Shown: positions 8,268 to 32,055 of the stretch, piece by piece
How the letters are laid out: every line of letters starts with the position of its first letter
How positions within the stretch are numbered: position 1 is the first letter of the stretch
DNA from: Chitinophagaceae bacterium
Lineage (GTDB): Bacteria > Bacteroidota > Bacteroidia > Chitinophagales > Chitinophagaceae
DNA: 33,326 nucleotides
Assembly (NCBI GenBank): GCA_019247775.1
Contig: JAFBAN010000065.1
Span: 1 to 33,326 of the forward strand
Direction of reading: 5' to 3'
Position numbers and translations under genes: made by a program
The notes under the pieces: model-generated
Told to the model about the DNA's origin: nothing
The model's database searches: none
The model's input: only the letters and a program-made list of their open reading frames with translations

Positions 8268-9143
8268 GTGCAGCATATAGAGTTCATCCATACCAGTCAT
8301 TTCATCGACAACTATCACCGGGCAAAGGCGCCGGCGCACCTGTCGCTGTTCATCGAGTTTTTCTGGGAAACGGACTTTGATGGCATCTGGGCCGGGTACC
8401 CGGAGGGGTTTTCCGATATCCTGTTCCCCAACATAGGCTATACTTACCTGCTTAACCTGGGTACGCCTTTCATCATGCAGGTGGGCGATAAGAAGTTCCC
8501 GATGAAGACGGATGGGTTTCTGCCCAGGCAGAAAGCGCTGGAATGTTACCACAAGCCGGGTAACCAGCTGTTCGGCATCAAGTTCAGGACTTCGCCGATC
8601 ATGTTCGAGAAAAAAGTGAATTTTGCGGAGTACAGGGACTCGATATTTCCCCTCAGCTATCTTGCCGATGCCGGCGTGCTGCGGGATGCAAAGGCTGCCG
8701 GCAGTTTCGAAGAACGTGTAGAAATCCTGTCACGATATTTTTATAGCCTGATCAAACAATACGAGGGCTCCCTGCAGCCCATCCGCATCGTTACAGAGAT
8801 CCTGGCCGATTGCAACCGCGACAACTCCTTTTCCCGCCCGGTAGAAGAACTGGCCGCACAGTACGATATCTCAACCCGTACCCTGCAACGGTATTTCGAG
8901 ATCAATACCAGCATTAGCACCAAGCAGGCCCTGCAGATCATGCGCATCCGAAAAGCCACGGAGCATCTCGTGAATGCGCCCGCCAGCTTTCATTTCTCCC
9001 AATATGGCTACTACGACCATAGCCATTTTTACAAACACCTGAAGCAGTTCCTCCAGAAAAAGACCCTCGAAAAAATGGAGCCGCACCTGGAGCTTTTGAA
9101 AAAACTGCATGCAACCGAAAAACGCGAAACGCGAAACGGCTAA
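8268..9143 (+). CDS. AraC-family transcriptional regulator with DUF6597-like N-terminus
   Basis: GTG start at 8268. HTH region FSRPVEELAAQYDISTRTLQRYFEINTSISTKQALQIMRIRKATEHL...YYDHSHFYKHLKQF. Confidence 0.85.
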   Translation: MQHIEFIHTSHFIDNYHRAKAPAHLSLFIEFFWETDFDGIWAGYPEGFSDILFPNIGYTYLLNLGTPFIMQVGDKKFPMKTDGFLPRQKALECYHKPGNQLFGIKFRTSPIMFEKKVNFAEYRDSIFPLSYLADAGVLRDAKAAGSFEERVEILSRYFYSLIKQYEGSLQPIRIVTEILADCNRDNSFSRPVEELAAQYDISTRTLQRYFEINTSISTKQALQIMRIRKATEHLVNAPASFHFSQYGYYDHSHFYKHLKQFLQKKTLEKMEPHLELLKKLHATEKRETRNG

Positions 9144-9180
9144 CGAATTCTCGTTTCACGTTTCGCGTTTGCGTTTTCCG
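9116..9180. repeat. ~30-bp near-perfect inverted repeat of ACGCGAA-type heptamers spanning the 3' end of the AraC gene
   Basis: Left CGAAAAACGCGAAACGCGAAACGGCTAACGA (9116-9146), loop ATTC, right TCGTTTCACGTTTCGCGTTTGCGTTTTCCG (9151-9180). Confidence 0.85.
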
Positions 9181-16563: not shown

Positions 16564-17424
16564 ATGAGAATACCCGGCTTATTATGCTGCCTGTTCCTGC
16601 TCAGTTCTGCCTCTGCCCAGCGCACCGATAAGCGGCTGGAGCGCGAGATCGCTTCATTGCTGAGCGGCTTCCATGGCGATATCGGAGTGTATGTGCACGA
16701 TCTGAAGAAAAATAAAATTGCCGCCATTAATGCAGACACCGTATTCCCAACAGCCAGTATGGTTAAAGTGCAGATCCTTACCGGCATCATGCGGAAGATA
16801 GAAGACAGTGCGCTGCAATATCACCAGGTCTTTACGTACAAGGATTCGTTGTTGTATGAAGGAGTGGATATTTTAGGCTCATTCAAGAACAATGAAAAGA
16901 TCGAATTGAGTAAGCTGATGATGCTGATGCTTACCATGAGCGATAATACGGCCAGCCTCTGGCTGCAAACGCTTGCCGGCACCGGTACGCGCATCAACGA
17001 ATTGATGGATGGCCTCGGGTTGAAATACACCCGGGTGAACAGCCGCACCCCCGGCCGCGAAGCCAATCGCAATATGTATGGCTGGGGACAGACCACTCCG
17101 AAGGAAATGGTAATGCTGCTGGAAAAGATCGTGAAGAAAGAAGTGATCAGCCCGGCGGCAAGTGAAAAAATGCTGCGGCTGCTGGGGCGCAACTATTGGG
17201 ATGAAGAAGCCATCTCGCAGATCCCTTCCGATGTATTCATCGCCAGCAAAAGCGGCGCCGTCAACGCCACCCGCGACGAAGTGCTGTTCGTCAACGGCAA
17301 AAAATGCAGCTATATCTTCTGCATCTGCACCAAGAACAACAAAGACACAAGCTGGGAAAGCACCAACGAGGCATGGGAACTGACGAGAAAGCTCTCTAAA
17401 TTATTGTGGAACTACTATAATTGA
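16564..17424 (+). CDS. Class A beta-lactamase-fold serine hydrolase
   Basis: S-x-x-K in TASMVKVQIL; SDN in MSDNTAS; KSG triad in ASKSGAVNATRDEV; signal peptide ending SASAQ. Confidence 0.85.
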   Translation: MRIPGLLCCLFLLSSASAQRTDKRLEREIASLLSGFHGDIGVYVHDLKKNKIAAINADTVFPTASMVKVQILTGIMRKIEDSALQYHQVFTYKDSLLYEGVDILGSFKNNEKIELSKLMMLMLTMSDNTASLWLQTLAGTGTRINELMDGLGLKYTRVNSRTPGREANRNMYGWGQTTPKEMVMLLEKIVKKEVISPAASEKMLRLLGRNYWDEEAISQIPSDVFIASKSGAVNATRDEVLFVNGKKCSYIFCICTKNNKDTSWESTNEAWELTRKLSKLLWNYYN

Positions 17425-17537
17425 GTCTGGAGTCTGGAGTTAGGAGTCTGGAGTAGAGAGTAAGATTTTTTAGGGTTACTCCAAACCACAAATCTACTCC
17501 AGACTCCAGACTCCAGACTCCTAACTCCAGACTTTAC
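17424..17537. repeat. Inverted arrays of AGTCTGG heptamers between convergent genes (terminator-like)
   Basis: Left units 17424-17465: AGTCTGG AGTCTGG AGTTAGG AGTCTGG AGTAGAG AGTAAGA. Right units 17496-17530: ACTCCAG x3, ACTCCTA, ACTCCAG. 24-bp exact match between the arms. Confidence 0.9.
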
Positions 17538-18178
17538 TACAACGCCACCAGGCCTTGTCGTATCGCTTCCAGCGCCAGTCCAACCCGGCTCTGGACGTTC
17601 ATTTTGTTGAACAGTACTTCGCGGTAGCCGTCGATGGTGCGTTCGGAGAGGTGCATGAGTGCGGCGATCTGTTTGTAGGTGAGATCGGAGCAGGCATATT
17701 GCAGAAATGCTTTTTCCTTGTCGTTGATAGCCACGGTTTCCTTTGCAACGCCGGCATTCGGCGCCCTGCGGGCCTGGGTATTGCTGGCATCGGCGTTGTA
17801 ATAGCCTTTGGTATCGATCTCGTGCAACGCTTTTTCAAGCTCGTCGGGATGCGTTTCCTTCAGCATATAGGCGCAGCATCCGGCTTTGATCATATCGATG
17901 ATCACTTTCTCGTCGTCGTTCATCGAAAGCGCCACCAGTTTCATCTGCGGGTAGTTGTTGTTGAGCCAGCGTGCGGTGTCCATCCCATTCATCACCGGCA
18001 TATTTACATCGATCAGCATGATAGATGGGATCTTTCTGCCTTTGCCGATCTTGTCCTGCAGGTCCATTCCATTCAACGCTTCAATGGTTACCTCGTAGTT
18101 GCCGAAGCTGTCCAGCATCAGTCCGAGTGATTTGGAGAACAATACATGGTCGTCTATTATGCCGATGGTTGTTTTCAT
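17537..18178 (-). CDS. NarL/LuxR-type response regulator
   Basis: REC domain IGIIDDHVLFSKSLG...MLIDVNMPVMNGMDTA; HTH LTYKQIAALMHLSERTIDGYREVLFNKMNVQSRVGL. Confidence 0.93.
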   Translation of the reverse strand: MKTTIGIIDDHVLFSKSLGLMLDSFGNYEVTIEALNGMDLQDKIGKGRKIPSIMLIDVNMPVMNGMDTARWLNNNYPQMKLVALSMNDDEKVIIDMIKAGCCAYMLKETHPDELEKALHEIDTKGYYNADASNTQARRAPNAGVAKETVAINDKEKAFLQYACSDLTYKQIAALMHLSERTIDGYREVLFNKMNVQSRVGLALEAIRQGLVAL

Positions 18179-18960
18179 GCGATAGCCTGGTTAACCGGTA
18201 ATTCAATGAGGACCACCGTGCCCTTGTATCCGGCCGACTGCCATACTACCGAACCCCCGAGCAGATGGGTGCGATGCCGGATATTGCGGATGCCCATCCC
18301 TTCCTGCACGGCATCGGGGTCGAAACCGCTGCCATCGTCTGAAAGCGTGAGCTGCAGTTTGCCGGGAAACTTGGTGATCTTGATATAGAAATGTTCGGCC
18401 TGTGCATGTTTGATCGCGTTCTGCACCAGTTCCTGCACAATTCGGAAAAGAATGATCTGCTCATTCGGTTTCAGCGGCAGGCTCTCCGGCCTGGTAAGGA
18501 AAATATGAAGCGTACGCGAAGAATTGATACGGCTGATCTCTGCTTCCAGGTTCTGGATAAAATTGAACTGAGAAAGCCATTCCTTGTCGAGGGATTTGGA
18601 CAAAGACCGCAGTTCCTGGATGGCCAGCCCCAGGGTTTCATTGGCGGTTACCAATGTGTCGGGCGGATCGCTCAGACTGCGTTGCGTTACACCGATCAAT
18701 AGCTTGGTACTGTTCAGAAGCTGGCCGATATTGTCATGCAGCTCCTTGCTTAACATGCTCATCGTCTCTTCCTGGGTTTCCAGTTGCGATTGCATCAATT
18801 GTTGGTCGAATTCACTCGCCATGATCCTTTTCTCCTCAAAATGCTTTTTCTTACGGTCGTTGTACATCCGCACATAGGTCAGCAATGCAGCAGCTGCAAC
18901 AACCAGGCTGCACGTGAAAATGATAACTATGAAGATGATATTTTGCGCCGATACCTGCAT
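18175..18960 (-). CDS. Sensor histidine kinase (HisKA_3/NarX-type) with one N-terminal TM helix
   Basis: ORF 18175..18981; likely start MQVSAQN at 18960. HisKA_3 motif KELHDNIGQLLNSTKLLIG; HATPase ELVQNAIKHAQAEHF, GSGFDPD, GMGIRNIRHR. ATGA overlap with the response regulator. Confidence 0.9.
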   Translation of the reverse strand: MQVSAQNIIFIVIIFTCSLVVAAAALLTYVRMYNDRKKKHFEEKRIMASEFDQQLMQSQLETQEETMSMLSKELHDNIGQLLNSTKLLIGVTQRSLSDPPDTLVTANETLGLAIQELRSLSKSLDKEWLSQFNFIQNLEAEISRINSSRTLHIFLTRPESLPLKPNEQIILFRIVQELVQNAIKHAQAEHFYIKITKFPGKLQLTLSDDGSGFDPDAVQEGMGIRNIRHRTHLLGGSVVWQSAGYKGTVVLIELPVNQAIA

Positions 18961-19571
18961 ACGAAAGAGTAACTCCAGCAACCGTAAAGCATAAAGTTAA
19001 GTATAGTAAAAATGATAAACCGAACGGGTATATGCTGTTTGCGGTAGATATCTGCAAGGTAATCGAAGAACAGATTGCAGGCAGTGCCGCCAAGATAAAA
19101 AAAGAACAGCGCCGTAATGATCCAGAACGGTGCGTGTTCATAAATATTCACATACTCATCTTTCTTCAGGAAATGATAGAAATACGAAACGCAGATGATG
19201 AGGATGCCCAGCGCGGCAACACTGTTACTCTGTACGCTGTACCTGTCGAAATGGTTGGTGATGCCTTCGAAGATATAGAGCGCCACAAATAATACCAGGA
19301 ACGGAATGATCCAATACGTTACCCTGAAATAAGAACGGCATAGCCGGTACAGGATATAATATTTGAAAAACATTTCTACCGGCAGATAAAGATTGTACAG
19401 ACCATGATTGACCTTGCCCTGCATCAACAGCACATAACCGATGGTTTCGACCACCACGGTAAAAACCATGAACCACCGGAATGAACCCCAGTAATTTTCT
19501 TCCCCTGCAAGGAACCGGAAAGCGAACAGCATACACACGATCTCGGCAACAAGGCCCAATGGTAACAGCAT
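18927..19571 (-). CDS. Polytopic membrane protein of unknown function, overlapping the kinase gene
   Basis: Several hydrophobic helices across 214 aa; stop lies inside the 5' end of the kinase ORF. Confidence 0.75.
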   Translation of the reverse strand: MLLPLGLVAEIVCMLFAFRFLAGEENYWGSFRWFMVFTVVVETIGYVLLMQGKVNHGLYNLYLPVEMFFKYYILYRLCRSYFRVTYWIIPFLVLFVALYIFEGITNHFDRYSVQSNSVAALGILIICVSYFYHFLKKDEYVNIYEHAPFWIITALFFFYLGGTACNLFFDYLADIYRKQHIPVRFIIFTILNFMLYGCWSYSFVCRYRRKISSS

Positions 19572-21480: not shown

Positions 21481-21937
21481 TTCTTTTTCTCTTCGTTCTT
21501 CTTTTATTGAAACTTGCTGCGAGTGAGGTAAGGTTTCGCTAAGAGTGGATAGGAGCAAAGGAGCTAAGGAGGGGTCACTCCTGCTACCCTCATTCACTCT
21601 TTTGACCTCCTGGCGAAACCCTTTCGGTGCTAACACATCCAAGGGTTCTTTTTCTCTTCGTTCTTCTTTTATTGAAATTTGCTGCGAGTGAGGGAAAGGT
21701 TTCGCTAAGAGTGGATAAGAGCAAAGGAGCTTAAGAGGGACCACTCCTGCTACCCTCATTCACTCTTTTGGCCTCTTAGCGAAACCCTTTCGGTGCTGAC
21801 ACATAGAAGGGTTCTTTTTCTCTTCCTTCTTCTTTTATTGAAACTTGCTGCGAGTGAGGGAAAGGTTTCGCTAAGAGTGGATAAGAGCAAAGGAGCTAAG
21901 GAGGGATCACTCCGTGACACTTATTTGCTCTTTGAGG
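21481..21937. repeat. Tandem array of 2.75 copies of a ~165 bp element (family G, locus 2)
   Basis: TTCTTTTTCTCTTC(G/C)TTCTTCTTTTATTGAAA starts at 21481, 21646 and 21812 (periods 165 and 166). Each copy contains GGTTTCGCTAAGAG; copies 1-2 end in (T)GGCGAAACC / TTAGCGAAACC. Confidence 0.92.
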
Positions 21938-25912: not shown

Positions 25913-26041
25913 TGAATGGTGAATGGGGATCGTGAAGCGTGAGACGTGAGACGGCAGTCGGTCACTCCAGGAAACAGCCACCTGTTCACCAATCACGTCT
26001 CACGCCTAACGCCTCACGCCTCACGTCTCACGCCTGCCGCC
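25913..26041. repeat. Inverted heptamer arrays (GCGTGAG/TCACGCC units) between co-directional genes
   Basis: Left TGAATGG TGAATGG ... GCGTGAG ACGTGAG ACGGCAG (25913-25957). Right TCACGTC TCACGCC TAACGCC TCACGCC TCACGTC TCACGCC TGCCGCC (25993-26041, seven consecutive units). Confidence 0.88.
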
Positions 26042-32017: not shown

Positions 32018-32055
32018 CGGTTCCTTGCTCATCTGTTCCTTGTTCCTCTGTTCCT
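32018..32055. repeat. GTTCCTT array 3' of birA (same family as 9178-9211)
   Basis: CGGTTCCTTGCTCATCTGTTCCTTGTTCCTCTGTTCCT. Confidence 0.65.

Follow-up and report, generated by a model that had tools for sequence, protein, structure and literature searches.

A candidate REP-like 3'-end hairpin of AGTCTGG heptamers between two facing stop codons, one copy of a genome-wide array family in a Chitinophagaceae bacterium

Two convergent genes of a Chitinophagaceae bacterium, encoding a serine beta-lactamase-like hydrolase and a LuxR-family response regulator, are separated by two opposed arrays of the heptamer AGTCTGG, which raises the question of what this element is and why it sits between two stop codons. 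The whole element, with six left and six right units of the pattern AGTNNRR (17424-17533), measures about 110 nt in a stop-to-stop gap of 112 nt, and its coordinates within the window, that is, the entire 33,326-nt stretch of DNA analysed, are collected in Table 1. The first base of the left array is also the last base of the hydrolase stop codon. The right array, read on the minus strand from 17533, consists of five clear units and a degenerate sixth (AGTAGAT), and its edge lies 3 nt short of the response regulator stop codon. The preliminary description had reported six in-phase left units beginning on the hydrolase stop codon, five in-phase right units ending just before the facing stop and an exact 24-nt arm common to both sides. 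All of this was confirmed, with the degenerate sixth unit added on the right.

Table 1. Features of the focal gap, its neighbour genes and two further inverted heptamer arrays in the window
Feature	Position	Strand	Basis and remarks
Serine beta-lactamase-like hydrolase (left neighbour)	16564..17424	+	ORF; PF13354, Pfam E 1.9e-45; stop TGA 17422-17424
Left heptamer array, AGTCTGG AGTCTGG AGTTAGG AGTCTGG AGTAGAG AGTAAGA	17424..17465	+	in-phase units read from sequence
24-nt exact arm AGTCTGGAGTTAGGAGTCTGGAGT	left copy 17431..17454; reverse complement 17510-17533	+ (left copy)	inverted-repeat search
Loop between arrays, 26 nt, with TTTTTTA and ACTCCAAACC remnant	17466..17491	.	sequence, folds
Right heptamer array, outer to inner AGTCTGG AGTTAGG AGTCTGG AGTCTGG AGTCTGG AGTAGAT	17492..17533	-	sequence
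LuxR-family response regulator (right neighbour)	17537..18178	-	ORF, Pfam; stop TAG 17537-17539
HisKA_3 sensor kinase, next after response regulator	18175-18981		ORF, Pfam
Inverted GTGAGAC/GTGAGGC (GTGAGRC) array, second class member	25931..26035	.	tandem gap
Inverted AAACGCG array, third class member	9120..9176 (short-period arrays to 9212)	.	convergent gap

The sequence AGTCTGGAGT occurs seven times in the window, each time within the focal element, where 0.05 occurrences are expected by chance. An inverted-repeat search of the window gave focal arms of 31-39 nt with 82-90% complementarity. The RNA fold of the element had an energy of -64.6 kcal/mol on the plus strand and -65.6 kcal/mol on the minus strand (z = -8.4 and -8.6, respectively), and no shuffled sequence folded as well on either strand. 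An Rfam search of the window returned zero family matches. The inverted heptamer array between the two facing stop codons is real.

The array had also been proposed to fill its convergent gap as a member of a class, and the further period-7 arrays in the window bear this out. Two are inverted arrays of other words (Table 1). Further intergenic short-period arrays lie at 1979-2002 and 32020-32055, with TCTCTGCG and GTTCCTT words. A different kind of repeat occupies another convergent gap of the window, at 21481-21913, where a 166-nt period is repeated in 2.6 copies at 92% identity with internal inverted repeats.

The host assembly is one draft genome of 4.04 Mb in 248 contigs. With up to two mismatches allowed, AGTCTGGAGTCTGGAGT had 536 placements in the assembly, overlapping placements inside a single array being counted separately, and the reversed control had 0. 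In 0.49 Mb of contigs picked regardless of content, we counted 83 period-7 arrays and between 0 and 5 arrays at each of the periods 5, 6 and 8-11, that is, about 170 arrays per Mb for period 7 versus 0-10 for other periods. This density extrapolates to roughly 700 period-7 arrays in the whole genome. A larger sample of 1.5 Mb contained more than 40 consensus words, some of them close variants of each other, including AGTCTGG, GTGAATG, GTGAGAC, GTCCATG, GTTTGGG, GGTCTGT, AATTAAT, TTAGCTN and AAACGCG. Densities from this sample were not used, because about half of its stretches had been picked for AGTCTGG matches; structural counts from it are independent of that choice. Some arrays were nested, with an inverted pair of one word lying within the loop of another word's pair (L067 1215-1544, L079 12846-12955 and L109 13842-14029), and these look like successive insertions.

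The AGTCTGG arms followed a stereotyped plan. The 153 arms ranged from 2 to 12 units, and 94 had exactly four. Within these 94, the first unit was AGTCTGG in 89 and the last in 81, and the arm continued into AGTA in 69. Only 2 of the 66 four-unit arms made wholly of standard words were pure AGTCTGG; the other 64 carried an AGTTAGG or AGTTTGG variant unit, nearly always in mid-arm. Neighbouring arms were arranged head-to-head in 54 cases and tail-to-tail in 1. The pair loops were 12-132 nt long, and inspection for a common loop sequence revealed none that was obvious. Inspected by eye, unrelated words such as AATTAAT and GTTTGGG formed arrays of 31-33 nt, likewise head-to-head and with one deviating middle unit, and array length for non-AGTCTGG words peaked at 31-32 nt. 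Two arms of about 4.5 heptamers face each other, and in this genome the arrays lie directly behind stop codons, whatever the word.

The preliminary description had noted that unit number and order differ between copies, which is seen across the AGTCTGG arms, and had suggested that individual arms may gain or shed units without giving up their complementarity. The first part of that suggestion agrees with the range in unit number and sits less easily with the sharp peak at four. As for complementarity, both arms of a locus tended to carry the same kind of variant unit (22 A/A and 8 T/T versus 3 discordant; Fisher p 2.7e-5), whereas arms swapped between loci paired almost as well as arms of the same locus (mean duplex energy -50.4 swapped versus -51.4 own; p about 0.06, borderline). 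Complementarity is therefore mainly a by-product of the common word. No rule was found for the positions of the variant unit in the two arms (2/3, 3/2, 2/2, 3/3 and 2/1; n = 10).

The position of the arrays was analysed against gene calls from a home-made hexamer model. Where an AGTCTGG edge faced a stop codon, the median distance between them was 3 nt, with 43 of 54 edges within 10 nt and many overlapping the stop codon by one base; where it faced a start codon, the median was 54 nt, and 5 of 44 edges came as close as 10 nt (p 5.5e-9). Arrays of other words behaved in the same way, at 4.5 nt from the stop versus 50 nt from the start (p 2e-8), and 12 of 266 arrays were located inside called genes. 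Residual gaps no longer than 20 nt held 15 of 49 AGTCTGG pairs, yet they offer just 1% of insertable positions. Convergent gaps were enriched relative to divergent gaps (odds ratio, 2.1; p 0.012) but not significantly relative to tandem gaps (p 0.13), and therefore the common factor is the stop codon and not convergence. Divergent gaps, which lie apart from stop codons, held 7 of 54 AGTCTGG pairs. For the pairs in tandem gaps, the fold of the sense strand was not more stable than that of the antisense strand (18 of 30; p 0.18).

The history of individual gaps was followed at three loci. The convergent gene pair of the focal site is kept in eight genus relatives, with stop-to-stop gaps of 0, 6, 7, 13, 15, 16, 30 and 77 nt versus 112 nt here, and none of these eight gaps contains an array. 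The 0-nt gap is that of G071, which a tree of rnc and the neighbouring epimerase gene places as sister to the host genome (support 98/98), and a search of the G071 genome for AGTCTGG found no array anywhere. The empty, short gaps of the relatives, together with the 0-nt gap of the sister, point to a precise, lineage-specific gain of the focal hairpin, the simplest account being that it was cleanly acquired where the two stop codons lay side by side.

The second locus is the convergent gap before a putative MacB/FtsX-like permease gene, named from its sequence. The host carries an AGTCTGG element there, while G106, G159, G092, G150, G083 and G095 carry inverted GTGAGTN-type arrays near both stops; the same gap measures 0 nt in G021 and G097 and 4 nt in G010 and G065. 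At the third locus, between the epimerase gene and rnc, species carry AGTCTGG, GTTTGGG, TTGGCTN or other heptamers, some of them one-sided, or nothing, and in several of the species compared a small reading frame apparently lies between the two genes. In G010 and G065 (L385 and L388), a different palindromic repeat, of GAGCGTAGCCGAGGGATCTC type, is found in this gap where others have heptamer arrays. A further gap, L113, had no synteny in relatives. At these three loci, the differing words in orthologous gaps may have come about either as separate gains or through replacement of an array that the ancestor already had.

Across genomes, the distribution of AGTCTGG was patchy. The word was found in 10 of 147 genus genomes, with 257 placements in the host, 88 in G159, 47 in G092, 33 in G083 and 0 in the sister G071. 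Three exact AGTCTGG units also occurred, among the matches listed, in Acidobacteria, Planctomycetes, Cyanobacteria, Chloroflexi, Nitrospirae, Bacteroidota, proteobacteria and archaea, and several loci among those matches had the same head-to-head pairing. Long perfect AGTCTGG arrays were seen in Enterobacter cancerogenus (80 nt; L133 7281-7360) and Erwinia sp. (73 nt; L136 5998-6070), neither with an inverted partner within the examined stretch. The relative G017 has 28 period-9 arrays in 4 kb (L235 7645-11486), which are probably a collagen-like Gly-X-Y coding region.

On the strength of this comparative analysis, we tentatively favour the view that the inverted heptamer arrays found throughout the genome, the focal one among them, are putative REP-like, stop-codon-proximal 3'-end hairpins. 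An inverted repeat would form a hairpin on both strands, so that each neighbour's transcript would carry a hairpin of 30-40 bp directly after its stop codon. This hairpin would be a 3'-end structure common to both genes, blocking 3'-to-5' exonucleases. It may in addition affect the terminating ribosome, as REPs of E. coli that lie no more than 15 nt from a stop codon affect translation (PMC12306157), and may restrict how far transcription reads through into the facing gene, with Rho helping rather than a U-tract. Selection is proposed to act on the stem and its position and not on the word, so that words would be replaceable. The empty orthologous gaps, the position of array edges at stops, the 54:1 orientation, the fold z scores and the presence of another word at the permease gap all speak for a 3'-end hairpin. 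Relatives that have no hairpin at all in the focal gap speak against it, as do the lack of a U-tract, the lack of a sense-strand stability excess, the marginal difference between own and swapped arm pairing and the 7 of 54 pairs in divergent gaps.

The main rival to the 3'-end hairpin is a selfish or purely mutational element, a parasite that would spread or form by a DNA process and survive mainly where it is harmless, just behind stop codons, with no host function. We consider this possible. It would account for the patchy spread of a word present in 10 of 147 genus genomes and absent from the closest sister, for more than 40 words in one genome, for nested arrays of differing words and for relatives whose focal gap is empty with no substitute. 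However, neutral insertion should track intergenic length, whereas 15 of 49 pairs lie in gaps that hold 1% of positions, and array edges face stops and not starts; the stereotyped arm length and variant middle unit also speak against it. If RNA structure alone were selected, the sense fold would be expected to be more stable than the antisense fold; the absence of this difference is a point for the parasitic element or for a role at the level of DNA. Such a role, as a binding or structural site for a nucleoid or gyrase-type factor or as a G-quadruplex, appears improbable: the equal stability of sense and antisense folds is what it predicts, and the G-quadruplex proposed for the Xanthomonas GGGAATC repeats is a precedent (PMC4692102), but AATTAAT, TTAGCTN and GTGAATG have the same layout without G-tracts, a point against G4 as the feature that unites them, and the arrays offer no common sequence to a single protein. 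A strong symmetric hairpin in a convergent gap does resemble a classical bidirectional intrinsic terminator serving both genes. Termination of this classical kind is not supported, since neither strand has a U-tract after the focal stem, and a T-run of at least 4 follows 3.7% of stems versus 10% of random intergenic sites; the missing T-run makes a simple intrinsic terminator improbable. A terminator scan, which permits short loops only, had no match overlapping the element, convergent gaps are not significantly enriched relative to tandem gaps, and most relatives' gaps, at 0-16 nt, leave no room for a terminator.

Mobility by a Y1 or DDE transposase, in the manner of a REP/RAYT or MITE-type element, is very unlikely. 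REP palindromes are tied to RAYT transposases, and the arrays share with such elements an inverted, interspersed, intergenic, high-copy occurrence in a host genome with two Y1-transposase matches. However, Y1 genes are not commoner in the host than in relatives, the Y1 gene examined (on contig C148) has no AGTCTGG array within several kb, and more than 40 different words, with loops of 12-132 nt lacking an obvious common sequence, also speak against it. In terms of membership, the more than 40 words and the Y1 surroundings do not show the conserved 20-40 nt palindrome, GTAG/CGTC tag and flanked RAYT gene of REP/RAYT elements, and the varying loops do not show the conserved full-length element of a MITE. 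Repeats made by a reverse transcriptase (telomerase-like, DGR or retron) were considered as well, and the host genome had 0 RVT_1 matches. A more speculative idea, which we regard as doubtful, is that in this genus the hairpin position behind stop codons is kept while the word is swapped wholesale between species. Inverted arrays, each arm about 4.5 heptamers long and varied in its middle unit, would then be laid down at the 3' ends of genes by a process dedicated to this task, which would have no link to known transposases or reverse transcriptases and would act whatever the sequence.

The class of heptamer inverted arrays is itself already known, from Xanthomonas, the Nostoc trnL P6b stem-loop, cyanobacteria and Beggiatoa. 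An excess of heptamers in bacterial genomes has long been noted, with the 7-nt unit left unexplained (reviewed in PMC4692102), and the heptameric repeats GGGAATC of Xanthomonas and GGGGAYT of Nostoc were described by Rehm et al. in 2015 (PMC4692102). The present arrays share with the Xanthomonas GGGAATC type exact 7-nt tandem units far above other periods, about four units per array (94 of 153 arms), close inverted pairs in one fixed orientation (54 versus 1) and an intergenic position near the stop of the 5' neighbour (12 of 266 in genes; median, 3 nt). They lack the GGG per unit that underlies a G-quadruplex, AGTCTGG having GG only, and the assignment to this class is by architecture and not as a G4 repeat. 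Compared with the repeats of Rehm et al., many words are present here and one there, most words here are without a G-quadruplex tract, the arrays are tighter to stops (median, 3 nt), and empty orthologous sites and differing words per gap are demonstrated here. In the P6b stem-loop of the Nostoc tRNA-Leu(UAA) group I intron, 7-nt repeats of Class I (TDNGATT) or Class II (NNTGAGT), two unrelated words, form the same structure, and evolution has repeatedly put one in place of the other (PMC4476775). The hairpin arms of 7-nt repeats are alike, and Class II resembles the GTGAGTN words seen here; however, P6b is a single cyanobacterial intron locus, whereas here hundreds of arrays lie mostly at the 3' ends of protein genes.

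MacGregor (2015, PMC4679880) described direct TAACTGA repeats in Beggiatoaceae, cyanobacteria and some Bacteroidetes, with indels between close strains occurring mostly in 7-nt increments. These are likewise genome-wide 7-nt arrays with a patchy distribution across phyla. They differ in being mostly direct, of a single word and, in the genome on which that work centred, located for the most part ahead of start codons. The STRR repeats of cyanobacteria also consist of heptanucleotides in tandem. For Calothrix, PMC4692102 mentions three heptanucleotides. The likeness to STRR lies in the tandem heptanucleotides, inverted pairing and a stop-codon position not being reported for STRR in the accessible portions of that literature. 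Enterobacterial REP/BIME elements, families of 20-40 bp palindromes (PMC3733652), resemble the arrays as interspersed hairpins behind stop codons but have no 7-nt periodicity. REP-like palindromes of another sort, GGACGCTTCCAGCGTCC and GGCCTTCAGGCCGTGG, were observed near a Y1-transposase gene (L282 16110-16490 and flanks), and these are unlike the heptamer arrays.

A literature search for heptamer hairpins in convergent gaps or in Bacteroidetes found no closer description. As far as the literature was searched, the number of words in one layout, the tightness to stops, the empty sites and the differing words in orthologous gaps appear to be new. With a genome of more than 40 words, several words in one layout, clean empty sites and orthologous gaps occupied by differing words, the material of this genus separates sequence from architecture, and both the function of the arrays, as a 3'-end hairpin or a tolerated parasite, and the origin of the 7-nt steps become testable.
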